Source of the DNA: Chloroflexota bacterium
Lineage (GTDB): Bacteria > Chloroflexota > Anaerolineae > DTLA01
Direction of reading: 5' to 3'
NCBI GenBank assembly: GCA_014874485.1
Contig: JADBJK010000040.1
Location: 1-55,342, forward strand
DNA: 55,342 nt
The notes under the pieces are model-generated. The model did not search any database and was not told the DNA's origin. It saw only the letters and a program-made list of their open reading frames with translations. A program made the translations under genes and the position numbers. This document shows, piece after piece, positions 39,489-51,031 of the stretch; positions within the stretch are counted from its first letter, which is position 1; every line of letters starts with the position of its first letter.

Positions 39489-40487
39489 TCATTCGCCGCT
39501 GACCGCGCGACGGGCAGCGAATAGCCTGTTGGCGGAAGCCATCAGGCGCTCCCGAACCCCGGCCGTGTCCAGTCCAATCTGCTCCATGGCCAGCAACACG
39601 CCCCCCACCACAGGGGGCGGGGCCAGCCGCACCAAGTGCGCTCCCGGCGCTGCGCCGTGGACAACGCGGGCCATTTCGTCGGTGAGCAGCGGGCTGCCCT
39701 TGAACATACTGCCAAAGAGCACCACTTCAAACTCCAGCGCTTCAATCCCGAGTTGGCGAATCACGCCCACCGCCAGGCTGCCCAGTTCGCGGCCCGCCCA
39801 TCGGATGATGTCTTGCGCTACGGCGTCGCCCTCTGCCGCGACCCGGAACACCGCCTGCGCGGCGTCGGCCGTCAGGCGGTATCGCTCCTGTGTCAGGCCC
39901 TCCATGAGGTCGGTCGCGTCGGCGGCGCCGGTCAGGGCGATGAACGCGTCCGTCAGGCGGGTCTGCGGGCCGCGCAGGCTCCAGGCGAGGGCTATCGCCT
40001 GCACCGCCTTGCCGACCAGTTCGGCCGCCCCGGCGTATTCGGCAAAGGCGGGGCCGGCGCCGGTAACGCGGCCTTCGCGCCCCTGGGCGTCGCGCCCGCG
40101 GCAGTTGCAGGATGTGCCCGAGACAACCGCCACGCCCCAGCCCCTGGTCGCACCCGCGATGAGGCCGAGCACCGCATCGTTGACGAACCGATAGGGCACG
40201 GCCAGTCCCAGGGTCTCAATGGCGCGGCGGGTGGGTTCATCTTCACACGGCCAGTCGTACCCCGCGATTCCAAAACCCGCTGCGGCCACCTGGGACTTGG
40301 AGACGCCAGCCGTCCGCAGGGCCTCTTCGGTGATGGCGTTCAGGGTGGCGGTCAGGCCCTCATAGCCCACCACTTCGTGGTTGCCTGAGCCGCCGACGCC
40401 CAGTCCCACGGCGTCGCCGTGTTCGTCGGCGATGAGGGCGTGGCTCTTGCTCGCGCCGATGTCCACTCCCAGGAAGTACCGCGTCAT
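39489..40487 (-). CDS. BadF/BadG-type sugar kinase (N-acetylglucosamine kinase-like)
   Basis: This 332-residue ASKHA-fold kinase begins MTRYFLGVDIGASKSHALI (phosphate-1 loop). It has AGYDWPCED, a second phosphate loop in VVSGTSCNCRGRD and an adenosine-site segment near EVVLFGSMF. Relatives phosphorylate N-acetylglucosamine or glucose, and distant ones are benzoyl-CoA reductase activators; no cluster-binding cysteine pair of those activators is evident. ATG 40487 follows AGGAGGGG, while ATG 40508 overlaps the stop of GH4. It is translationally close to GH4, so it probably phosphorylates the sugar that GH4 uses or releases. Confidence 0.85.
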   Translation of the reverse strand: MTRYFLGVDIGASKSHALIADEHGDAVGLGVGGSGNHEVVGYEGLTATLNAITEEALRTAGVSKSQVAAAGFGIAGYDWPCEDEPTRRAIETLGLAVPYRFVNDAVLGLIAGATRGWGVAVVSGTSCNCRGRDAQGREGRVTGAGPAFAEYAGAAELVGKAVQAIALAWSLRGPQTRLTDAFIALTGAADATDLMEGLTQERYRLTADAAQAVFRVAAEGDAVAQDIIRWAGRELGSLAVGVIRQLGIEALEFEVVLFGSMFKGSPLLTDEMARVVHGAAPGAHLVRLAPPPVVGGVLLAMEQIGLDTAGVRERLMASANRLFAARRAVSGE

Positions 40488-40500
40488 CGCCCGTCCCCTC

Positions 40501-41799
40501 CTAGCCATCCTGGAACTGCGGTAGGTACTGTCGGTGGGTCGCCAGCATGTCGTTAAGCACCGCGCGCACGCGGTCGGCTGGCGGGCCCAGCGGGTGGGTC
40601 AGCAGCGCCTGGTAGGCCGCGCGACGGTCTCCGTGAACGGCCGCCTTTACCGTGAGGAGTTCGTAGGCTTTCACGTGCGCCAGCAGCCCGAAACAGGCTG
40701 GGGGCAGAGGCTCGGCGGGCAGGGGATGGATTCCCGCGGCGTCCACGCGACAGGGCATCTCCAGCACCCAGTCGGGCGGCCACCCCGCGACCGCGCCTCG
40801 GTGAGGGACGTTGACAACATGGGTCTCGGCCAGGTTGTTGAAGTGCGCGTTGAGCAGTTGCGTGGCGACTGTGGAGTAGTACGCGCCCCCGCGCTGCATC
40901 AGGGTCGCGGGCAGGGTGGCCGCTCCCGGCGCGGCATACTGGCGCAGCAGGTCGGCCTCAATTGCCATGACTTGCTCGGCGCGGGAAGGCGGCCATTTGG
41001 CCTGCTCGGCCAGTTCGCGGCCCGTGTGGTAGTAGTACTTCAGGTAGCCATTCGGAATCATCCCCAGGGCCTCTATGGTGTCGGGGTCCCACTCCGGTTC
41101 AGCCGCCTTTCGCAAGTCGGCGATGAACCCTGCCAGAACCTGCGGCCACAGGTCCTGGCCATCCACCGTGAAACCGTAGTGCCACGTGAGGTGGTTCAGC
41201 CCCAGGGTTTTCAGTTCGGCGCGTGCGGGGTCCATGTGCCGCGGGTTGTCGGCGCTGAGGCGCTCCAGGATGTGCATCTTCGTTGTGTACGCGACGTTGC
41301 ACAGGCCCACAGCGGGGATGTCGGGGGCATGGCGGCTCAGCGCCTCATTGATGAGCCCGGCGGGGTTGGTAAAGTTGACCAGGAGCGCGCCGGGGGCCAG
41401 GTCGCGCATGTCCGCGGCAACCTTGAGAATGACGGGGATCGTGCGGAGCGCCTTGGCCATGCCGCCAACGCCGGTCGTCTCCTGTCCGATGAGGCCGTGC
41501 CGGTGGCCCAGGTACTCGTCTTCGCGGCGGGCGGCCATGCCCCCGACGCGCAGTTGGGTGATGACATAACGAGCACCGCGCACCGCCTCGCGCTGGTCTG
41601 TTGTCAGATGGACGGAGAAGCGGCCGCCATGCGCCTCCACCATCCGCCGAGCAAACTCCCCAACGACACGGAGCCGCTCCTCCGAGATGTCCATCAGCCA
41701 CAGTTCGGTCAGCGGGAACGTCTCGGCGCGGTCCAGAAAGCCCTGGACGAGTTCTGGGGTATAGGTGGATCCGCCCCCGATGATGGCGACTTTGAGCAT
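40501..41799 (-). CDS. GH4 family glycosidase (6-phospho-beta-glucosidase-like)
   Basis: This 432-residue protein has the GH4 NAD-binding start VAIIGGGSTYTPELV and the NFTNPAG segment. The metal-binding pair is C167 in GLCNVAY and H203 in LNHLTWHYGF. GH4 enzymes use NAD+ and Mn2+ and act by oxidation-elimination, mostly on phosphorylated disaccharides; some act on non-phosphorylated glycosides. No PTS component is visible in the window, so the origin of a phospho-disaccharide is unclear. The adjacent kinase could supply it. The start follows AGGGAG. Confidence 0.93.
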   Translation of the reverse strand: MLKVAIIGGGSTYTPELVQGFLDRAETFPLTELWLMDISEERLRVVGEFARRMVEAHGGRFSVHLTTDQREAVRGARYVITQLRVGGMAARREDEYLGHRHGLIGQETTGVGGMAKALRTIPVILKVAADMRDLAPGALLVNFTNPAGLINEALSRHAPDIPAVGLCNVAYTTKMHILERLSADNPRHMDPARAELKTLGLNHLTWHYGFTVDGQDLWPQVLAGFIADLRKAAEPEWDPDTIEALGMIPNGYLKYYYHTGRELAEQAKWPPSRAEQVMAIEADLLRQYAAPGAATLPATLMQRGGAYYSTVATQLLNAHFNNLAETHVVNVPHRGAVAGWPPDWVLEMPCRVDAAGIHPLPAEPLPPACFGLLAHVKAYELLTVKAAVHGDRRAAYQALLTHPLGPPADRVRAVLNDMLATHRQYLPQFQDG

Positions 41800-41831
41800 G
41801 TGAACTCCCTACCAAGTGGCAGCGCAGGCTA

Positions 41832-42098
41832 TCACTGCATCCACGAGGGGTCCCACCGCTCCTGCAGCAGGGTAACCGTCGCCTCCTTCACTCCGGGCAC
41901 GCCCTCCGCGGCCAGGCGCACCTGTTCGGTGAGGAAGTTGGCCAATGGGCAGAACGGCGCGGTGAGCACCATCTTGATCTCAACCCGGTCGCCCTCAATG
42001 ACCACCTCCCGAATCATTCCCAGGTCCACGACGCTCATCCCGATTTCCGGGTCTATCACCGGGCGCAGCGCCTCGCGAATCTCCTGTTCTGTAGGCAT
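41832..42098 (-). CDS. DUF59/MIP18-family protein (FeS-assembly type)
   Basis: This 88-residue single-domain protein has the DUF59 hallmarks VIDPEIGMSVVDLGMI and LTAPFCPLANFL, with the conserved reactive Cys. Such proteins assist iron-sulfur cluster assembly (SufT-like) or, in fused forms, phenylacetyl-CoA oxygenation. AGGAGG precedes the start. It sits between DegV and GH4 genes, with 32 and 18 bp gaps. A housekeeping role in FeS protein maturation fits the many FeS enzymes in this window. Confidence 0.92.
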   Translation of the reverse strand: MPTEQEIREALRPVIDPEIGMSVVDLGMIREVVIEGDRVEIKMVLTAPFCPLANFLTEQVRLAAEGVPGVKEATVTLLQERWDPSWMQ

Positions 42099-42116
42099 GT
42101 CTTCCTCCTGTGAAAG

Positions 42117-42986
42117 TTATTCAGTCTCCCCCACGTCCCGGGCGCAGAAGGCCAGGCCGATGGTGCCCGGTCCGGTGTGAACGCCCATGACGGGGGTGAA
42201 TTCGGTAACGTAGAGCTCCTGGCAGTCAAATCGCTCGCGCACCTGGCCTTCAATCCACGCGACATCGTCGCCGGCGTCGGCGTGGAAGACCGCAGCGCAC
42301 ATGGGTCGCCTGCCAACGCGTTCCTCCATCAGGTCCAGGATGCGCTCCAGGGCCTGTCGCCGGTTACGGACGACTCCCGCCACCTTCACGCGGCCTTCGG
42401 CCAGGTACAGTATCGGGTGGATGCGCAGACGCGCGCCCAGCATGGCGGCGGCTTCGCCGATGCGCCCGCCCCGGTGCAGGTACTCCAGGGTTGCCAGCGT
42501 CGCGAAGAGGCCCACGCGCGGGATGGTGGCCTCTGCCGCGGCGGCCACTTCGTCCAGGCTCTTCCCGGCTGCCGCCGCGCGCGCGGCCGCCAGCACCACG
42601 AACCCCTCGGCGATGGCGGCCGTCCGTGCGTCTATCACCCGCACCGGAACGGTGGCCGCCTGCTCTGCAGCGAGGCGCGCCGTGTGCAGCGTGCCGCTCA
42701 GTTCGTCGGGGACGTGGATGGACACAATCCCATCGGCTTCGCGGCTCAGCTCCGCGTACAGGTTGGCGAATGTGCCCAGGGCGGGCTGCGACGTCGTGGG
42801 CCACGAATTCCTCTCCCGCAACGCCCGCAGCCGTCGGTACACCTCGGTGGGGGTGATGTCCACGCCGTCCCGGTAACTCTGGCCGTCCCACACCAACTCA
42901 AAGGGCACGACGTGGATGTTGTACTCCCGCACCAAGTGCTCCGGAATGCATGCTGCGCTGTCCGTTACGACTGCGATGCGTGCCAT
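42117..42986 (-). CDS. DegV-family fatty-acid-binding protein
   Basis: This 289-residue protein has the DegV layout. The N-terminal domain contains IAVVTDSAACIPEHLV, HVVPFELVWDG and TSQPALGTF, SIHVPDELSGTLHTA contains the lipid headgroup-binding loop, and the C-terminal TPVMGVHTGPGTIGLAF completes the family signature. FakB/DegV proteins present fatty acids to a FakA kinase. It lies 60 bp downstream of a PlsY-like gene, which would use the resulting acyl phosphate, so this pair may form part of phospholipid synthesis. No fakA is visible here. Confidence 0.94.
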   Translation of the reverse strand: MARIAVVTDSAACIPEHLVREYNIHVVPFELVWDGQSYRDGVDITPTEVYRRLRALRERNSWPTTSQPALGTFANLYAELSREADGIVSIHVPDELSGTLHTARLAAEQAATVPVRVIDARTAAIAEGFVVLAAARAAAAGKSLDEVAAAAEATIPRVGLFATLATLEYLHRGGRIGEAAAMLGARLRIHPILYLAEGRVKVAGVVRNRRQALERILDLMEERVGRRPMCAAVFHADAGDDVAWIEGQVRERFDCQELYVTEFTPVMGVHTGPGTIGLAFCARDVGETE

Positions 42987-43046
42987 GGCTCACCTCCGCG
43001 TTGCGACTCCGCGCTCTCGGCGCGTCCCGATGGCCCCGTGTCCCGT

Positions 43047-43700
43047 TCACGGGGTCCGCTGATCCCAGGCTTCTTGCGCCCCCACGTCGCGGTCAAAGAG
43101 CAGGCGACGCAGGAGCACGCGGCGGCGCTCCGGCCCCGGCGGAGGCAGCGGGCGGCGGTTCGCCTCCAGCCGCTTGGTGAGCGTAATTCCCAGCGTGGCG
43201 ACGGTGGCCCAGATGACCTCCGGCGGCTGGTCCGCAAACGCGACCAGCAGGGGCAGGGTGGCGATGCCGAGCAGGGAGAACAGGGCCGTCTGCCCCATGA
43301 GCCGCCCCAGGGCCATGAACGCCAGGAGCCAGGGGAACCCCCACGGGAAGACGGCCAGCATGATGCCGATGATGCTGCTGTGGCCGCGCCCCCCGTGGAA
43401 CCCCAGGTACACGGGCCAGTTGTGGCCGATCATCGCCGCCAGCCCTGCGACCAGCGCAGCGCCCAGCCCCAGGCCCCACCGGATGCCCAGCCACGTGGGG
43501 AGCCAGACCTTGGCGATGTCCAGCACGCCCACGGCGACCACAGCGGGCCGCGACACGTGGTAGTACACGCCCGTGCCGCTGACCGTGCCGCTGCCGTAGC
43601 GGCGCAGGTCAATGCCCTTGAGCCAGCGGCCCGCCAGGTACGACGTGGGAATGGAACCCATGAGATAGCCCATGGCGGTGAGCAGCAGAGCGCGGGACAT
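43047..43700 (-). CDS. PlsY-like glycerol-3-phosphate acyltransferase, divergent
   Basis: This 217-residue protein has about five membrane helices. GSIPTSYLAGRWLKGIDLRRYGSG matches the first PlsY motif (20 residues or so of the N-terminus), and GHNWPVYLGFHGGRGHSS corresponds to the second motif region, normally GGKG-A-T. The usual GSGNIGATN is replaced by a GSGTVSGTG-type loop, so substrate or activity may differ. ATG 43700 follows AGGGAGAG; ATG 43724 is an alternative. PlsY transfers acyl groups from acyl phosphate to glycerol 3-phosphate, matching the DegV gene next door. Confidence 0.82.
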   Translation of the reverse strand: MSRALLLTAMGYLMGSIPTSYLAGRWLKGIDLRRYGSGTVSGTGVYYHVSRPAVVAVGVLDIAKVWLPTWLGIRWGLGLGAALVAGLAAMIGHNWPVYLGFHGGRGHSSIIGIMLAVFPWGFPWLLAFMALGRLMGQTALFSLLGIATLPLLVAFADQPPEVIWATVATLGITLTKRLEANRRPLPPPGPERRRVLLRRLLFDRDVGAQEAWDQRTP

Positions 43701-43740
43701 ACTCGTCTCTCCCTGACTTTCCATCAGCCCTTGCCGATGT

Positions 43741-43769
43741 ATTCTAAAGCAGTAACCCCTAGAAGGCAA
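43741..43769 (-). promoter_or_regulatory. Putative promoter of the PlsY-DegV-DUF59-GH4-kinase series
   Basis: On the minus strand TTGCCT (43769-43764), 17 bp, TAGAAT (43746-43741). An inverted ACCCCT/AGGGGT pair surrounds the -35 box and could bind a regulator. Confidence 0.55.
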
Positions 43770-43794
43770 CAGGGGTGCAATCCCAACTCGGCAC

Positions 43795-43908
43795 TGTCAT
43801 TGCGAGCGAAGCGAAGCAATCTCGGTTGGCGAGATTCTTCGGCGCTGCGCGTCTCAGAATGACAGCGTGCCGGGATTGCATCGGGCGCTGCGTGCCCTCG
43901 CAATGACG
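43795..43908. repeat. TGTCATTGCGAG-type repeat
   Basis: This block holds one full unit (TGTCATTGCGAGCGAAGCG to CTCAGAATGACA) and an attached CGGGATTGC...CCTCGCAATGAC arm. It fills part of the gap between the two minus-strand groups. The remaining 43909-44001 shows no gene. Confidence 0.88.
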
Positions 43909-44001
43909 GTTGCCTGCGAACTCCGGAACCGAAGCGCAATTCCCTCTCCGCGGCCCCCTCCGTCTCGGTTCGCCCTGCTCGGAATCGCAACGGTACGCCG
44001 C

Positions 44002-44766
44002 TCATCTGAAGACGACCCACAAGAACCGCGCTCCAATCACGACGAGGATTGGAGCGATGACGTAGGTAACCACACGGCCCAGTCGCTGGGTCCATATCCG
44101 TTCTACGCCGAGCGCAGTCAGCGCGATGACGGTGAACAGGTACAAGGCCAGCAGGAGCGTGTCCTGGGTCAGGGCAGGCCCGACAGATACCTGGGCCAGC
44201 AGTCCGGCCCACGCCCCGCTGACTACACCCAGCGTCGCCAACGCATAGGCACGGCGGGGGTGATGCCCCAGCGCGCCATTGTAGAGCGGGACGGTGAAAG
44301 GCTTGCCCCCTGCCGACAGGAAACCTGCCAGCGCCCCGCTCCCTGCAGCGATGGGCACGATCCACGCTGGGTGAGCCTTGTTCTCGCGTTCGGCCAGGGG
44401 CTTGATGAGCACGAGCCGGAGTCCGGCCAGGACGGCGTACACGCCCAGAACGCCCAGGAGCACCGGCGGCTTCACGTTCAACGCCGCAACCCGACCCAGG
44501 GCGCCACCCACCACGGCGGGGATCACCACCGCAGGCCAGTGCTCGCGCACCGACTCCAAGACCGCGCCCTGGCGAAGAAGCATCATCAGAGCCGCCAACG
44601 AAACCACAACGAGATTGACCACGACAGCCTGCTGAATGGGCAGGCCCACGAGACCAACCAGGATGATGACCAGAAAGAAGCGGTCAACCCACGACTGGAT
44701 GGACGCGGTAACAAAGCCGACAATAAGCCCGGCCAGCAAGCCTTTGAGCAACAACGGTGCAATCAC
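44002..44766 (-). CDS. TSUP-family (TauE/SafE) permease
   Basis: This 254-residue protein has about eight membrane helices in two repeated halves, with the family segments GLLAGLIVGFVTA near the start and SGALAGFLSAGGKPFTVPLY at the middle. TSUP proteins move sulfite, sulfonates, thiosulfate or other small anions. GTG 44766 is chosen because AGGAGG lies 8 bases upstream; longer readings lack a site. It is the last gene of an ArsR-headed set, 26 bp after a BASS-type transporter, so both may handle the same toxic or sulfur-containing anion. Confidence 0.88.
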   Translation of the reverse strand: MIAPLLLKGLLAGLIVGFVTASIQSWVDRFFLVIILVGLVGLPIQQAVVVNLVVVSLAALMMLLRQGAVLESVREHWPAVVIPAVVGGALGRVAALNVKPPVLLGVLGVYAVLAGLRLVLIKPLAERENKAHPAWIVPIAAGSGALAGFLSAGGKPFTVPLYNGALGHHPRRAYALATLGVVSGAWAGLLAQVSVGPALTQDTLLLALYLFTVIALTALGVERIWTQRLGRVVTYVIAPILVVIGARFLWVVFR

Positions 44767-44792
44767 GACGATAACCTCCTGTGTGCGTCTTG

Positions 44793-45812
44793 CTATTTGC
44801 TTCCACCGGCAGCAGGGGCCTCGGCGGTTCTGGGAGCGAACATCCGCCGCGCCAGCCACGGCGACAGTCTCAGAAATGCGGTCATGAATGCAATTTGGAT
44901 GACCGGCTTCAGGGCCAGCACCAGGACCGTCATCGGGCTGAAGAAGATGGTCGCGAGTGCCAGGGCGATGGAGATGTTCTTACCTGCCACGCCGTAGGAG
45001 AACGCGATCATGTCCTCGTATCGGAAGCCGGCCAGTTTTGAGGAGAGCACAGCCCCGGTGAAGAGGATCGCGTACAGAAACGCCAACGGTATCAGGACGA
45101 TGATGAAATACTGTGGGTGCTGGGTCACGTTATTGGCTTCCAGCGCCATAGAGATGAACACGATCATGTACATGCCCAACATGGACACGCCCGGCAAGAT
45201 CGGCTTGACCTGCTGGAAGGTCTCGGCGCTCCGGAAACGGATGATCGCCCTGCGGGTCAGGTCTCCCAGGATGAGCGGAACCACGACCGCGATCAGGATA
45301 TCCTTGAACATCCCCAGCGCATCTATGTGGACATACACGCCTGCCAGGATGGGCATCCAGATGGGAATCATGACGATGCTGACCAGCAGGCTGAGCGCAA
45401 CAATGATCAGCGCCAAGGCAACGTTCCCCTTGGCGTAGCCGGTCCAGCCTGCCACCATCCCCGCGCACGGTACGGTGCCGGTCAGGATGAGGCCGACGGC
45501 GAAGTCGGGCCGCCCGCGCAGGAAGAGCCACGCCAGCCCGGCGGCCAGCAGGGGTGAAAGGACGAAGTTGAATATCATAGACAGGCTGATCAACTTCAGG
45601 TTGGTGGCAGCCTTGCCGACCTCCTCAATGCGCAGGCCGATCATCATGGGATACAGCATGACGAACAGCGCCACGGTGCTCAAGGATTTCAGCCCCTTGG
45701 CCTGGGCCGGAAACAGCCACCCGAACGCGATTCCTGCCGCGATGGAGAGCAGAATGAGCAGGATCAGGTTGCCCTCCGCAAACTTCGCGGCTTTTTGCAG
45801 TGACTTTAGCAT
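44793..45812 (-). CDS. BASS/ACR3-superfamily transporter
   Basis: This 339-residue protein has about ten helices and the superfamily segments PMMIGLRIEEVGKAATNLK, GLILTGTVPCAGMVAGWTGYAKGN and SYGVAGKNISIALALA. The cysteine in TVPCAGMV occupies the place of the essential ACR3 cysteine, although the neighbouring sequence is not classical ACR3. An arsenite-type or bile-acid/organic-anion sodium symporter are both possible. ATG 45812 follows CGGAGG. Location below an ArsR gene favours toxic-anion efflux, but that is inference. Confidence 0.85.
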   Translation of the reverse strand: MLKSLQKAAKFAEGNLILLILLSIAAGIAFGWLFPAQAKGLKSLSTVALFVMLYPMMIGLRIEEVGKAATNLKLISLSMIFNFVLSPLLAAGLAWLFLRGRPDFAVGLILTGTVPCAGMVAGWTGYAKGNVALALIIVALSLLVSIVMIPIWMPILAGVYVHIDALGMFKDILIAVVVPLILGDLTRRAIIRFRSAETFQQVKPILPGVSMLGMYMIVFISMALEANNVTQHPQYFIIVLIPLAFLYAILFTGAVLSSKLAGFRYEDMIAFSYGVAGKNISIALALATIFFSPMTVLVLALKPVIQIAFMTAFLRLSPWLARRMFAPRTAEAPAAGGSK

Positions 45813-45879
45813 CGTGTGCCTCCGGGTTTTTCGTTTGGTATAGGGAGACGCGTTACACGGCCACGGGGTGGCGCGTGAA

Positions 45880-46203
45880 CTACAGGGCTCCCTCAATGAA
45901 CTCAATGCTGCAGTCTGCCGGCAGGAAGAGCCCCGCCGTTACTTCCAGCGTCTTCAAGATGGCGGCAGGCACGATACAACTGTTGCGGCAGACGTGCTTG
46001 GTCGCCAGCGTATAAACGCGCGTCTCGTTGAGCGGGCAGGACATCTCGTGTGCCACATCCACCCGGCCCAGTTCCGCGGCCAAGGCTTCCATTCGCTCGC
46101 AGGATGTGGTAACTTCAAGGCCCACGTGTGTCGGGTCCACCTTGTGCGCAGAGATACTGGTTTCCTTTCCGCACTCTCCTGCTTTGACCCAGCATGTAGC
46201 CAT
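45880..46203 (-). CDS. Small seven-cysteine protein (DUF6951-like)
   Basis: This 107-residue protein has Cys at 4, 11, 35, 56, 72, 76 and 98. The segments VKAGECGKETSI, CERMEALAAELG and KHVCRNSCIVPAAILKTLEV resemble, as far as I recall, the uncharacterised DUF6951 family of anaerobes. The cysteine pairs suggest metal, persulfide or FeS binding. ATG 46203 is selected by GGAGGG 8 bases upstream; the longer frame begins beyond this site. It is encoded between a ferredoxin and the BASS transporter, so it may be a redox or metal-delivery partner. Confidence 0.8.
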   Translation of the reverse strand: MATCWVKAGECGKETSISAHKVDPTHVGLEVTTSCERMEALAAELGRVDVAHEMSCPLNETRVYTLATKHVCRNSCIVPAAILKTLEVTAGLFLPADCSIEFIEGAL

Positions 46204-46270
46204 AAACAGAACCCTCCGTGGGGAGACCTTCGCGTGTTTCTTGTTACCGATTCGTGCGGCGCCAGAGGAC

Positions 46271-46303
46271 AAGGGAGGCACGACAATGCATCGTGCCTCC
46301 CTT
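46271..46303 (-). terminator. 13-bp stem hairpin after the ferredoxin gene
   Basis: AAGGGAGGCACGA (46271-46283) pairs perfectly with 46291-46303 around a 7-base loop. It lies between the ferredoxin stop and the small cysteine protein gene on the minus strand. No long T-run follows, so it may only attenuate. Confidence 0.65.
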
Positions 46304-46318
46304 TGCCCAAGGGCTGCC

Positions 46319-46603
46319 TTATGCGCCGTATTTCACGCGCAGTTCCTTGATGAGGGCGACCACCTGCTCCTTCTCCGGGAAACTGATGGCATCCTCTGGG
46401 CACGCATTGGCGCAGCCTTTGCAGTACACCATGCAGTTGTACGGTTGGGCGACCACAGGATGATTCTCCTGCTCATCCCATGTGTACACACTTGCGGGGC
46501 AGTGCTCTATGCATGCCTGGCAGCCGATGCACAGGTCGTAGTTGACCGTCGGGTACCAGGGGATTTCGCGACGGGGAATCCCGTCCCACATCTGCTCTGC
46601 CAT
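46319..46603 (-). CDS. 2[4Fe-4S] ferredoxin-type protein
   Basis: This 94-residue protein has two cluster motifs: C25-x2-C28-x2-C31-x3-C35-P and the variant C57-x3-C61-x2-C64-x3-C68-P. It is a short cytosolic electron carrier or an electron-transfer subunit of a larger complex. ATG 46603 follows CGGAGG. The gene lies 19 bp after the HdrA-like gene, so the two may work as partners. Confidence 0.93.
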   Translation of the reverse strand: MAEQMWDGIPRREIPWYPTVNYDLCIGCQACIEHCPASVYTWDEQENHPVVAQPYNCMVYCKGCANACPEDAISFPEKEQVVALIKELRVKYGA

Positions 46604-46622
46604 GTTCCGTGTCCTCCGGGTT

Positions 46623-46988
46623 TCAACGATTCTGCAAACTTGTAACGACGTCGGCCACCTTCTTGAAAGCCTCATCGGTGGACATGTTGCGAAGGTCCAG
46701 GCTCAACACCTGCTTGTCAAAGTCGCCGCCGATGTCGGAGAAGGCGTCCTTGAACATCTTGCGCTGCATTTTGGGGTCGCACGCGCCCACGACATAGGTT
46801 ACGTCGGGCTTGGCGTAGTCGCGCCAGAAGCGATCTCCATCGTCCACGCACAGTTGTGGGTGCACAATGGCGTACTCCACGCTCAGTTCGTTCCGAACTC
46901 GGTTCACCAACTTCCACACATCCAGTGAGGCAAACCCTGGGCATTCTCCGGTGCAAATGCACATGACAAAACGTGCTTTATCGTCCAT
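46623..46988 (-). CDS. Stand-alone HdrA N-terminal-like domain protein
   Basis: This 121-residue protein has CICTGEC near its start (C10, C12, C16), C47 in HPQLC and C70 in VVGACDPKMQRKMF. That is the cysteine and motif pattern of the N-terminal FeS domain of heterodisulfide reductase subunit A, but with no flavin domain. It probably binds one [4Fe-4S] cluster. ATG 46988 (MDDKARF) is chosen behind AGAGGTGA; GTG 47000 is an alternative. With the ferredoxin it may deliver electrons to, or accept thiol-derived electrons from, an unknown partner. Confidence 0.8.
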   Translation of the reverse strand: MDDKARFVMCICTGECPGFASLDVWKLVNRVRNELSVEYAIVHPQLCVDDGDRFWRDYAKPDVTYVVGACDPKMQRKMFKDAFSDIGGDFDKQVLSLDLRNMSTDEAFKKVADVVTSLQNR

Positions 46989-47215
46989 CTTGTCTTTCAC
47001 CTCTTCTTGAGAGACTTATGAATCGCAACGGTCAACTCGCAGGCTCACCGTGGCATCTAGGCGGCGAGCGTTTCAGGCTCGCGGAGCGCCTGCGAAAGCA
47101 CATGCAGCCGCACGCTCGTTTGCAGGTTTTCATCGTCCCACTCCTTCATAGCCCATCGCGGGCTATCGCGCTTCGCGTGCCCAGGCGAGAGTCTCGCGTC
47201 CAGGCCAAGCCGACC

Positions 47216-47566
47216 TCACCCCGCCTCTGGGAGCCACTCGTCCTCATCCGGCTCGGCCGGCACGGGCTGCTCGTCGCCCTCAAGGCAGGCTGCTAGCACC
47301 GCGCACAGGTCCACCAGTTCGCCCACACGTGCGTCGGCCAGGCAGTAGTACACGCACGCGCCCTCGCGCCGCGCGCGTACCAGCCCCGCACTGCGAAGCA
47401 TGGCCAGGTGCTGCGAGATGTACGGTTGACGTCGGCCTGTTTCCCGCGCCATCTCGCAGACCTGAATCTCCTGCGAGCGGAGCAGGTTCAGCAGGTAGAG
47501 GCGACACGGGTGGGCCAAAGCCTTGAAAATCTCGGCCTCTTTGCTGTAGAACTCTCTGCTGTCCAT
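47216..47566 (-). CDS. ArsR/SmtB-family transcriptional repressor
   Basis: This 116-residue winged-helix protein has FKALAHPCRLYLLNLL, IQVCEMARETGRRQPYISQHLAMLRSAGLV and REGACVYYCLAD. C37 stands in the alpha-3 position of ArsR-type metal-binding boxes, but the second cysteine of ELCVCDL is absent. Other cysteines (C21, C71, C75, C88, C94) may form a different thiol or metal sensor. ATG 47566 follows GAGG. It heads the minus-strand set of HdrA-like, ferredoxin, cysteine-rich and transport proteins. Confidence 0.92.
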   Translation of the reverse strand: MDSREFYSKEAEIFKALAHPCRLYLLNLLRSQEIQVCEMARETGRRQPYISQHLAMLRSAGLVRARREGACVYYCLADARVGELVDLCAVLAACLEGDEQPVPAEPDEDEWLPEAG

Positions 47567-47586
47567 TGGCCTCACACTCCATTCAA

Positions 47587-47597
47587 TATTCCGAATA
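47587..47597 (-). promoter_or_regulatory. Putative ArsR operator
   Basis: TATTC, C, GAATA is an 11-bp palindrome directly downstream of the -10 box on the minus strand, over the likely transcription start. The flanks are AT-rich, like known ArsR sites. Binding is inferred. Confidence 0.55.
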
Positions 47598-47598
47598 C

Positions 47599-47627
47599 AT
47601 TATATCCCCCTTGTCAAATCGTGTCAA
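47599..47627 (-). promoter_or_regulatory. Consensus promoter of the ArsR gene set
   Basis: On the minus strand TTGACA (47627-47622), 17 bp, TATAAT (47604-47599), an exact match to the sigma-70 consensus. A second TTGACA inside the spacer is too close to the -10 box to act with it. Confidence 0.88.
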
Positions 47628-47790
47628 TTCGGATTTGCAAGTGATTCGCCTTGTGCGGGTGGGGCTGGTGCAGGCGGGCGATGGGATCGCTTCGGGCACT
47701 GCGTGCTCGCGCACGCGTGTCAGCGCCGTGGAGCATTTCCGTTTTGGGGCGAGAATGACCGAATATCGTTAGGTTGTCGCGCAGAATCTA

Positions 47791-48009
47791 CCTCACCTAT
47801 CCCCACCCCGGCCCTCCCCTTTCCTCTCCGCCTGCGGAGAGGAAAGGGGAGGGTGTGAGAGGGGTTAGGTGAGGTCAAGTAGCCTCTTCGCTGTACGTTG
47901 GGCGGTGAAAGTGGATTTCGTCGGTGGGGAGCGGCTCACGGCCCTGCTCCGACGTGACCATTGCAGCAGGCTTGCCCCCAAACTGAAATGTGCCGAGCGC
48001 CGCAGCGCG
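47791..48009. repeat. Copy 2 of the 208-bp direct repeat, with extended hairpin
   Basis: 47801-48009 matches 1-208. The inner 19-bp stem has one base change in the loop, and an outer pair, CCTCACCTA at 47791-47799 with TAGGTGAGG near 47866-47874, extends the palindrome to about 84 bp. It occupies the gap between the divergent ArsR and MFS genes. Confidence 0.87.
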
Positions 48010-48010
48010 G

Positions 48011-48039
48011 TTGACCCAATGCCCCAGGTGTGCTAAACT
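48011..48039 (+). promoter_or_regulatory. Putative promoter of the MFS gene
   Basis: TTGACC (48011-48016), 17 bp, TAAACT (48034-48039), right at the end of the 208-bp repeat. Transcription would start about 57 bp before the GTG start codon. Confidence 0.6.
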
Positions 48040-48102
48040 ACGGGCCTGCCGGCACACGGTTGTCCCCGCGCTTGTCGGACATTCATCCTGAGGAGGCGCA
48101 TC

Positions 48103-49353
48103 GTGACCCACATCGGCACCGACAAGGCAAACGCCGCGCCCAAAACGCGCGTGAGCCGCAACGTGATCTGGCTAGCGCTGGTCTCGTTCTTCACGGACAT
48201 CTCCAGCGAGATGACGCTCACAACTCTCCCGCTCTTTCTCACCGATGTGCTGGGCGTGCGCACGGCCATCGTGGGCCTGATTGAGGGCCTGGCCGAGACG
48301 ACCGCCAGCCTCATGAAGATTTTCTCCGGCTACATCTCGGACCGCATCGGCAAACGCAAGTGGCTGACATTCGTAGGCTACGGGCTTTCGGCGGTGTCCA
48401 AGCCGTTCTTGTATTTCGCCGCCTCGTGGGAGGCCGTGCTGGGGATTCGGTTCGCAGACCGGCTGGGCAAGGGGATCCGCACCGCGCCCCGCGACGCGCT
48501 CATCGCCGATTCCGCCGGCGAGAACAACCGCGGCGCGTCGTTTGGCCTCCACCGCGCGGGCGACACGGCGGGGGCGTTCGTGGGATTGGCGCTGGCCGCC
48601 GTCATCATCTACGCCAGCCAGAAGTTCGGCCTGGCCATGACGCGCAGGACCTACCAGACGCTCGTGCTGGTCGGAATCATCCCCGCCTTCATCGCGCTGC
48701 TGATTCTCGGCCTGCTGGTCAAGGAGGTGGTAGGCCCTGGGAAGAAGGCGGAGGCGGTCCGCTTGAGTCTGCGCGGTTTCTCGCCGCGTTTCAAAGCCTT
48801 TCTGGCCATCGTCGTGCTGTTCACGCTCGGCAACTCCAGCGACGCATTCCTTCTGCTGCGGGCGCGGAACGTGGGGCTGTCGGTCTTCCAGATTTCCCTG
48901 ATGCTGGTGGCGTTCAACCTCATCTACGCGGTGATTTCCGCGCCGGCCGGGGCGCTTTCGGACCGGGTGGGGCGGCGGCGGCTGATTGTGGCGGGCTGGC
49001 TGGTGTATGGCCTCATCTATCTGGGGTTCGGCCTGGCACGGGCGGGGTGGCAAATCTGGGCGCTCTACGCGGCGTATGGCATCTACTACGGGGCGGTGGA
49101 GGGCACGGCCAAGGCGCTGGTGGCCGACATCGTGCCTGCGGAGAAGCGTGGGACTGCCTACGGCGTGTATAACGCCGCCGTGGGGCTTTCGGCATTTCCC
49201 GCCAGTTTCATCGCGGGCATCCTGTGGCAGGGCGTGGGCGGCTGGCAAGGGTTCGGGGCGTCGGCGCCGTTCTACTTCGGGGCGGCGCTGGCCCTGCTCG
49301 CGGTGGCGCTGCTGGTGCTCTGGCTGCCCAGAACCCGCGCCGACGAGGTGTAA
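48103..49353 (+). CDS. Major facilitator superfamily transporter
   Basis: This 416-residue protein has about twelve helices. The MFS loop signature is seen in GYISDRIGKRKWLTFVGYG and again in GALSDRVGRRRLIVAGW after the sixth and seventh helices. ADRLGKGIRTAPRDALIAD between helices 4 and 5 is typical of a large uncharacterised MFS group. GTG 48103 follows AGGAGG. The substrate is unknown. The next gene, ribonuclease J, begins 22 bp later, so they are probably co-transcribed. Confidence 0.92.
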   Translation: MTHIGTDKANAAPKTRVSRNVIWLALVSFFTDISSEMTLTTLPLFLTDVLGVRTAIVGLIEGLAETTASLMKIFSGYISDRIGKRKWLTFVGYGLSAVSKPFLYFAASWEAVLGIRFADRLGKGIRTAPRDALIADSAGENNRGASFGLHRAGDTAGAFVGLALAAVIIYASQKFGLAMTRRTYQTLVLVGIIPAFIALLILGLLVKEVVGPGKKAEAVRLSLRGFSPRFKAFLAIVVLFTLGNSSDAFLLLRARNVGLSVFQISLMLVAFNLIYAVISAPAGALSDRVGRRRLIVAGWLVYGLIYLGFGLARAGWQIWALYAAYGIYYGAVEGTAKALVADIVPAEKRGTAYGVYNAAVGLSAFPASFIAGILWQGVGGWQGFGASAPFYFGAALALLAVALLVLWLPRTRADEV

Positions 49354-49375
49354 GTCTGTAGTGAGGTGAGTGCAC

Positions 49376-51031
49376 GTGGGCAAGCAGAAGTTGCGGATCA
49401 TCCCACTTGGGGGGCTTGGCGAAGTCGGGAAGAACATGCTCGCCGTTGAGTACGGCTCCGACATCCTCATCATTGACGCGGGCGTGATGTTTCCCGAAAA
49501 CGACATGTGGGGGGTGGACCTGGTCATCCCCGACTTCGGGTACCTGCTGGACAAGAAGGAGCGGGTGCGGGCCATCGTGCTGACCCATGGGCACGAGGAT
49601 CACATCGGCGCGCTGCCCTACGTGCTGCGCCAGATTCCGGTGCCGGTGTACGGGACGCGGCTGACCATCGGCCTGGCCAAGGTCAAGTTGCGGGAGGAAG
49701 GGATGGCCGATGCCGTGCCGCTCCACGAGATGGCGCTGCGGCAGCCGTTTCACATCGGCGCGTTTGAGGTGGAGTGCTTCCGCATGAACCACAGCATCCC
49801 CGACGACGTGGGGCTGGCCATCCGCACGCCGCTGGGGCTGTTGGTGCATTCGGGCGACTTCAAGTTTGACCACACGCCCATTGAGGGCAAGGGCGCGGAT
49901 CTGGCCCGGCTGGCACAGTTGGGCGGCGAGGGCGTCCTGCTGCTGATGGCCGACAGCACCAACGCCGAGCGCCCCGGGTTCACGCCGTCCGAGCGGGTCG
50001 TGGAGCAAGCCTTTGACCAGGTCTTCTCGCGCGCCAAGGGGCGCATCATCGTGGCCACGTTCGCGTCCCTCATCTCGCGCGTGCAGCAGTTGGTGAACTG
50101 CGCCGAGCGGTATGGCCGGCGGCTGGCCTTCGCCGGTCGGAGCATGGTGGACAACGTCAAGATCGCCCAGGAGTTGGGCTACCTGACGATTCCCGAGGGG
50201 CTTGTGGTGGATCTGGGCGTGGTGAAGCACATGAAGCCGGATCAGATCGTGATCATCGCAACGGGGAGCCAGGGCGAGCCGACGTCGGCCCTGGCCCGGA
50301 TGGCGGCGGGCACCCACAAGCAGGTGCAGATTGTGCCGGGGGATACGGTCATCCTGTCGTCGCACGTGATCCCCGGCAACGAGGAGATGGTAGGCCGCAC
50401 CATCAACCGCCTGTTCCAGCGTGGCGCGGAGGTGGTGTACGAGGCCGTGGCCCAGGTGCATGTGTCCGGCCACGCCAGCCAGGAGGAGCAGAAACTCCTG
50501 CTGAGCCTGACGAAGCCCAAGTACTTCATGCCGATTCACGGTGAGTTGCGGCATTTGCACCATCACGCCCGCACGGCCATTGACCTGGGCATGCCGCCGG
50601 AGAACGTGTTTGTGGTGGAGAACGGGTACGTGATTGAGGTGGACGAGAAGGGCGCGCGCGTGGGCGAGCGCGTGCCGGGCGGCTGGGTGTTCGTGGATGG
50701 GTCTGGCGTGGGCGACATCGGGCCGGCGGTGCTGCGCGACCGCGAGGCATTGAGCCGCGATGGGTTTGTCGTGGCGGTGGCGACGGTCAAGCGCGACGGC
50801 TGGACGCTCCAGCGCCCTGTGGAATTGGTTACGCGCGGCGTGGTGTACCTGCCGGAGGCGCAGGAACTGGTGCAGCGGGCTGCGGCGGCTGCGGGTGAGG
50901 CTATCGGCGCGGGCAGTCCGCCGAAGGACGAAGTGGAGGTGCGCGACCGGGTTCGCCGCGCGCTTGGCCGCTTCTTCCAGGAGGAAGTGGGGCGGAACCC
51001 CATGATAGAGGTCGTCGTCATCGGGGTGTAG
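49376..51031 (+). CDS. rnj: Ribonuclease J
   Basis: This 551-residue metallo-beta-lactamase/beta-CASP protein has LTHGHEDHIGALP (HxHxDH zinc site), NHSIPDDVG, HSGDFKFDHTP, ADSTNAERPGFTPSE and beta-CASP segments such as TGSQGEPTSALARMA and HVSGHASQEEQ. A C-terminal RNase J domain completes it. It acts as a 5'-to-3' exonuclease and endonuclease in RNA maturation and decay. GTG 49376 is preferred to GTG 49370 because GAGGTGA abuts the latter. The full family length is present, with no sign of truncation. Confidence 0.96.
   Translation: MGKQKLRIIPLGGLGEVGKNMLAVEYGSDILIIDAGVMFPENDMWGVDLVIPDFGYLLDKKERVRAIVLTHGHEDHIGALPYVLRQIPVPVYGTRLTIGLAKVKLREEGMADAVPLHEMALRQPFHIGAFEVECFRMNHSIPDDVGLAIRTPLGLLVHSGDFKFDHTPIEGKGADLARLAQLGGEGVLLLMADSTNAERPGFTPSERVVEQAFDQVFSRAKGRIIVATFASLISRVQQLVNCAERYGRRLAFAGRSMVDNVKIAQELGYLTIPEGLVVDLGVVKHMKPDQIVIIATGSQGEPTSALARMAAGTHKQVQIVPGDTVILSSHVIPGNEEMVGRTINRLFQRGAEVVYEAVAQVHVSGHASQEEQKLLLSLTKPKYFMPIHGELRHLHHHARTAIDLGMPPENVFVVENGYVIEVDEKGARVGERVPGGWVFVDGSGVGDIGPAVLRDREALSRDGFVVAVATVKRDGWTLQRPVELVTRGVVYLPEAQELVQRAAAAAGEAIGAGSPPKDEVEVRDRVRRALGRFFQEEVGRNPMIEVVVIGV

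Follow-up and report, generated by a model that had tools for sequence, protein, structure and literature searches.

An ArsR-headed redox and transport operon of an Anaerolineae bacterium as a possible accessory arm of an arsenic-type regulon

Background

Among the ArsR-family repressors that respond to sulfane sulfur, SqrR senses through a cysteine pair formed by C41 and its alpha5 partner, and among arsenite exporters of the ACR3 family a glutamate is functionally important. The N-terminal cluster of HdrA, of heterodisulfide reductase, borrows Cys197 from a partner subunit, according to the accessible part of one report (PMC9012536), and the available text of another (PMC9751042) describes, in Fusibacter sp. 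3D3, genes for a redox-active disulfide protein and a ferredoxin next to arsC, a precedent for such proteins in an arsenic gene context. Here we analyse a gene set on the minus strand (47627-44002) of a 55,342-nucleotide stretch of DNA, hereafter the window, which is contig JADBJK010000040.1 of the Chloroflexota bacterium assembly GCA_014874485.1 (Anaerolineae; DTLA01). The set comprises, in order, a promoter and genes for an ArsR regulator, a stand-alone HdrA N-terminal-domain protein (HdrAN), a ferredoxin, a DUF6951 protein, an SBF-family carrier and a TSUP permease. Judged from sequence, it has about an even chance of belonging, as an accessory operon, to an ArsR regulon of the arsenic type. 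Among the literature matches listed for ArsR, ferredoxin and heterodisulfide reductase arsenic-resistance operons, which is as far as that search went, no paper describes this gene set.

An operator shared with arsenic-export operons

The ArsR gene is preceded by a sigma-70 promoter, TTGACA-17-TATAAT (47599-47627, minus strand; -35 box 47622-47627, -10 box 47599-47604), that matches the consensus at 12 of 12 positions, and by a predicted ArsR-type operator, TATTCGGAATATTGAAT, of the form TATTC-N8-GAAT (47581-47597, minus strand), which overlaps the promoter and recurs class-wide; the consensus promoter with an operator proposed in the initial annotation, which was made from the letters alone, was thus located. 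Promoter-like sites number three in 4.45 kb against a shuffle mean of 1.0, and this one alone scores 12/12. In the ArsR promoters of HdrAN loci, ATTC-N8-GAAT lies just past the -10 box, exactly in the window and in loci L078, L079, L080, L081 and L085, and nearly exactly in L082, L084 and L086.

The exact TATTC-N8-GAAT occurs at eight sites in the 3.74-Mb genome of the window (G000), and a reversed-pattern control at none. A composite pattern, defined as a TTGACA box 16-25 bases upstream of TATTC-N8-GAAT, is found there twice, at the window promoter and at an unlinked operon on contig C86 (L151), the other six sites having no TTGACA box at matching placement. The C86 operon encodes an ArsP-like permease, an ArsE-type thioredoxin-like protein (93 bits, cut-off 62) and a true ACR3 (471 bits with TIGR00832, cut-off 282.8), with no ArsR beside them, so that the window set has its operator in common with an arsenite-exporter operon, as expected of an ars regulon. 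The 199 genomes of the class contain 54 composite sites, spread over 42 of them, and none for the reversed control. The first gene after the site encodes ArsR in 24 cases, HdrAN, ferredoxin or ArsP in two cases each and an SBF carrier in one; it is unlabelled in 11, and no gene was called in 12. Nine sites head HdrAN-containing operons in eight genomes (G000, G006, G017, G018, G074, G081, G105 twice, and G114), and nine head ArsP or ACR3 operons (G129, G000, G007, G022, G114, G194, G105, G144 and G172), with one G105 site belonging to both counts. The arrangement of the window genome is mirrored in G114, where ArsR accompanies ArsP on contig C2 and the series operator-ferredoxin-HdrAN-SufC-SufB stands without ArsR on C6.

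The operator common to a true ACR3 operon, together with similar operators before ArsP or ACR3 operons in relatives, singles out arsenic-type metalloid stress, and on this ground arsenic appears favoured over sulfur or selenium, the ligand of the regulon being most likely arsenite. The initial annotation had proposed handling of a sulfur, selenium or arsenic anion by reduction and export; the arsenic branch of that proposal gains from the operator, whereas its reductive part stays unproven and the local carrier falls outside ACR3. The operator shared with the ACR3 operon and the reverse split in G114 are the reasons for regarding the window set as accessory to an ArsR regulon of the arsenic type.

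The same genome also encodes an ArsC-like protein (L222 1483-1938, G000:C33) inside a pst phosphate-uptake operon with the order PstA-PstB-ArsC-like-PhoU-like, its neighbours being named by eye; with the matched stretch only as query, this protein scores 139 bits, under the cut-off of 174.3.

The regulator and its paralogue

The regulator (47216-47575, minus strand), whose start is either ATG 47566 or GTG 47575, exceeds the cut-offs of the family models NF033788 (88.9 bits against 55) and HTH_5 (45.2 bits against 22, E 8.6e-12); the genome holds seven HTH_5 matches at E up to 0.01. The nonstandard set of six cysteines noticed earlier consists of C24, C40, C74, C78, C91 and C97, of which C40 alone aligns with the usual CxC motif. 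A second ArsR (L220, contig C86) shares the recognition segment RRQPYISQ with the window ArsR and also contains a CVC motif and, at its C-terminus, CSCPVC. Its gene is the first of an operon (L220 3790-6918, G000:C86) that further encodes an Fe-S protein of PF04060 and a membrane protein of thioredoxin/DsbD type; TATTC-N8-GAAT is not present at its promoter. The ArsRs of ArsP operons resemble the L220 protein (up to 120 bits) more than the window ArsR (up to 84.7 bits), so the ACR3 operon may answer to the window ArsR, the L220 ArsR or both.

HdrAN and its ferredoxin

HdrAN (46623-46988, minus strand; 121 amino acids) has no Pfam match by itself. A 15-sequence HdrAN profile searched against the PDB matched HdrA alone at E < 0.1 (9sfi 6e-4, 7bkb 0.017, 5odc 0.071), and a single-sequence model (pLDDT 72.4) aligns to the HdrA N-terminal domain, residues 2-140, with Z 10.0-11.3 over 116-118 residues, so that profile and predicted fold both identify the stand-alone HdrA-N-like FeS protein that had been recognized by eye. 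Five cysteines of HdrAN are invariant (C10, C12, C16, C47 and C70); HdrA has the CxC and the later two, without a counterpart of C16 in the 9sfi profile alignment. C16 may stand in for the Cys197 that HdrA obtains from its partner subunit. The adjacent gene (46319-46603, minus strand) encodes a 2x[4Fe-4S]-type ferredoxin (Fer4) with the motifs CxxCxxCxxxC and CxxxCxxCxxxC, the second of which, CMVYCKGCANAC (C-x3-C-x2-C-x3-C), is as unusual as first described; both are kept in 16/16 HdrAN-adjacent ferredoxins, that of G381 standing outside the count.

HdrAN matches occur in 19 of 199 Anaerolineae genomes, three by a long HdrA alone and 16 with the stand-alone form. The profile matches 24 of 301 genomes of the phylum, where the stand-alone protein is found only in the window genome and in G381, the other matches being long HdrA-type frames and, in G271, a HdrA fragment at a contig end. 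The neighbourhood sample consists of 17 HdrAN loci, namely the 16 of the class and G381 from the phylum search; a second, partial HdrAN match (G063:C359) lies outside the loci examined, and L063, which is covered by L080, was left out of clustering and neighbour counts. A ferredoxin gene stands next to the stand-alone HdrAN on the same strand in 17/17 loci, and ArsR lies within 8 kb in 12/17. Further neighbours are SufC with SufB (6 loci), the ArsE-type protein (5), a NifX-like protein (5), TSUP (4), ArsP (3), true ACR3 (3) and DUF6951 (3), compared with no ArsR, ferredoxin or SufBC and one ArsP at 14 control loci around other DUF6951 proteins of the same class. The neighbourhood search suggested at the outset has therefore returned recurrent linkage of HdrAN, ferredoxin and ArsR, not the unlinked homologues that would have spoken against the set.

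Three HdrAN loci also contain a probable CxxU selenoprotein, encoded by CMD/AhpD-like genes in which GCGP-TGA is followed by FENH (L078 7611-7754, L079 11550-11693, L080 5963-6100). At L094 (G103:C816) one cluster unites ArsR, an ArsP-like permease, an ArsE-type protein, a ferredoxin, orthologues of both the TSUP permease and the SBF carrier of the window, and a protein that by eye resembles a chromate transporter.

DUF6951

The protein encoded at 45880-46203 (minus strand) matches PF22263 with 91.6 bits (gathering score 27), which gives a family, DUF6951, to what had been described as a seven-cysteine DUF-type protein; the seven cysteines were confirmed by count, and C11, C35 and C76 are the same in all 21 aligned sequences. 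DUF6951 is found in 39 of 199 class genomes, and three of these (L078, L079 and L081) each have an intact gene in which it is fused to ArsR, with both domains over the Pfam cut-off in the two fusions submitted (L079 and L081). A fourth fusion gene (L087 8900-9646) is interrupted by stops, unlike the intact one of the relative L081, and was excluded from the count. The fusions in three genomes suggest that DUF6951 could be a thiol-based metalloid-binding protein. In five of six loci with a window-clade DUF6951 gene, an SBF carrier gene is at most 5 kb away from it; in the sixth (L058) it adjoins a TSUP-like gene.

An IscU/NifU-like scaffold was considered, since the cysteines are spaced similarly and the predicted strands and helices follow a similar order, but it gained no support from profiles: the hhalign probability with 31 NifU_N sequences was 0.2 per cent, no better than for unrelated families. 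A 99.5 per cent match of DUF6951 to an ArsR alignment arises from a fused ArsR-DUF6951 protein inside that alignment. Searches of the PDB with DUF6951 returned nothing by sequence and E near 1 at best by profile, and a literature search found no paper on the family. Neither DUF6951 nor HdrAN has relatives on viral contigs or on the plasmids searched.

Carriers and operon layout

The carrier gene (44793-45812, minus strand; PF01758) had been called BASS/ACR3-like, of which the SBF family assignment stands and membership of ACR3 does not. The product keeps C116 in a PCAGMV segment, but scores 119.9 bits with the acr3 model TIGR00832, under the cut-off of 282.8, and lacks the ACR3 glutamate, having IS in place of the FE of ASNNFELAIAVA. 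The last gene (44002-44769, minus strand) encodes the TSUP (TauE/SafE) permease, as annotated, with 50.6 bits for PF01925 against a cut-off of 32.6. The six-gene anatomy of the initial annotation, coordinates included, was right in every detail by family models and, for HdrAN, by the HdrA profile and fold.

Intergenic gaps from ArsR to TSUP are 227, 19, 115, 67 and 23 bp, and the six genes probably form one transcript; a perfect 13-bp stem-loop between the ferredoxin and DUF6951 genes (46271-46303, minus strand; z -3.73), possibly a processing or attenuation site, is the reason for the caution. An Rfam scan of window positions 40000-50000 matched no family. Downstream of the operon, at 41832-43769, are MIP18-, DegV- and PlsY-type genes, which recur near HdrAN or DUF6951 in the relatives L059, L080 and L084, and the interval between TSUP and PlsY contains inverted repeats of the kind TCATTGCGAG...CTCGCAATGA (43793-43910) that look like a dispersed repeat.

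Proposed function and alternatives

In the proposed mechanism, an ArsR, either that of the window or the one on C86 with its nearly identical recognition helix, would repress both promoters and leave the DNA once its cysteines bind a thiophilic metalloid, most probably arsenite. Both arms would then be jointly induced and ACR3 would pump out arsenite. Least certain are the other roles: the ferredoxin and HdrAN might pass low-potential electrons to thiol (ArsE-type) proteins, or to Fe-S targets and SufBC repair; DUF6951 might act as a three-thiolate metalloid-binding protein or carrier; and the SBF and TSUP carriers might export a metalloid or a sulfur anion. The initial annotation could match the set to no known system. 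Its control logic now appears to be that of an ars regulon, and the HdrAN-ferredoxin-DUF6951 arm appears to be a new part of such a regulon. A fuller picture, tentative and less likely than not, is that HdrAN is an independent redox protein, made complete by a fifth cysteine of its own and an obligate partner of the unusual-motif ferredoxin, as the ferredoxin-dependent electron-delivery or Fe-S repair module of a metalloid-stress regulon of anaerobic Anaerolineae, and that DUF6951 is a metalloid-binding domain, serving as a chaperone if free and as an extra sensor if fused to ArsR.

Several observations weigh against placing the set in an arsenic-type regulon. ArsR is the sole known arsenic gene inside the operon, its cysteine set is idiosyncratic, and its control of the regulon is not certain, the L220 ArsR being the better fit to the ArsRs of ArsP operons; at five HdrAN loci (L083, L089, L090, L091 and L092) there is no ArsR within 8 kb. 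The local SBF carrier does not belong to the ACR3 family, and the structure prediction of DUF6951, from three similar sequences, is poor (pLDDT 41.7). The operator pattern was derived from six HdrAN-locus promoters, and recovery of those six among the nine HdrAN sites is circular, a point for which the chance estimates, based on a mean genome of 3.9 Mb, make no correction, so that they carry no weight here; independent of the definition are the ACR3 operon of the same genome, the HdrAN sites of G105 (the second), G081 and G114, and the ArsP or ACR3 operons other than that of G105.

A response to sulfane sulfur or sulfide, with an ArsR acting like SqrR, BigR or sHdrR, persulfides reduced by HdrAN and ferredoxin, and sulfite or a similar anion exported by TSUP, is rather unlikely, although TSUP and HdrA-type proteins are encoded in the operon itself, TSUP orthologues adjoin HdrAN in 4/17 loci, several HdrAN loci contain DGC, NifX-like, GcvH-like, OsmC-like and thioredoxin-like genes, and the sulfane-sulfur ArsRs of Hyphomicrobium belong, in the accessible text of their description, to a system with the sulfite exporters TauE and YeiH (PMC12423496). 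Alignment places Asn30 of the window ArsR at the first sensor-cysteine position of SqrR and BigR, the BigR model gives 59.6 bits, under its cut-off of 155, and the operator is the one shared with ACR3. The argument from the missing cysteine is tempered by the many ArsRs near shdr genes that also lack sensor cysteines, as the available part of the same source reports (PMC12423496).

Service to Fe-S cluster assembly or repair, in which HdrAN and ferredoxin would support a SufBC (SMS-like) scaffold when metalloids or sulfide limitation harm clusters, is unlikely as a reading of its own, and would be compatible with an arsenic-type regulon as a downstream job. SufC and SufB lie near HdrAN in 6/17 loci and at 0/14 controls, they form part of the operator-led HdrAN operon in G114, G006 and G074, and SMS uses sulfide as its sulfur source, a point in favour taken from the accessible portion of PMC12192291. 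The window operon and the 8 kb around its HdrAN, however, contain no SufBC, nor do 11/17 HdrAN loci.

A role in selenium handling, with selenite or a selenium carrier being reduced and transported, is very unlikely: the three HdrAN loci with a GCGP-TGA-FENH gene and the distant similarity of the ArsP-like permease of the C86 operon to SaoE speak for it, but the window operon has no such selenoprotein gene, its operator ties it to ACR3, and most such transport selenoproteins are assigned to metal or metalloid resistance in the available part of a review (PMC13188914). Chance assembly of unrelated genes after horizontal transfer is just as improbable, given the recurrence of the HdrAN-ferredoxin and DUF6951-SBF pairs, even if HdrAN and DUF6951 are missing from two same-genus genomes, the G+C content of the operon region is 0.60-0.62 against about 0.66 in its surroundings, and the full six-gene order was found at no other locus examined.

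If the set is such an accessory arm, a testable operator would tie metalloid stress in uncultured anaerobes to three orphan families (DUF6951, the HdrA N-terminal domain in its stand-alone form and the ferredoxin paired with it), and an arsenic-type response would draw on low-potential electrons from ferredoxin instead of NADPH.

Comparison with known systems

Sequence and predicted fold alike show HdrAN to be the N-terminal Fe-S domain of HdrA; it is without the FAD-binding thioredoxin-reductase domain and the ferredoxin domains, whereas its fifth invariant cysteine sets it apart. The SMS (SmsCB) Fe-S assembly system has its likeness in the SufC-SufB pairs of HdrAN operons in relatives, but SufB and SufC are missing from the window operon. 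Like SqrR, BigR and sHdrR, the window regulator belongs to the ArsR family of small dimeric repressors, without their first sensor cysteine; with the exporter ACR3 the local carrier shares family and C116 and differs at the FE position and in model score. A further likeness is to the ars operons of anaerobes such as Fusibacter sp. 3D3, which in the accessible text (PMC9751042) have ArsR control, ACR3, and thioredoxin-like and ferredoxin genes in arsenic contexts, as here. Unlike those operons, the window genome has its arsenic pump in a separate operon under a common operator, and adds HdrAN, DUF6951, a non-ACR3 carrier and TSUP.

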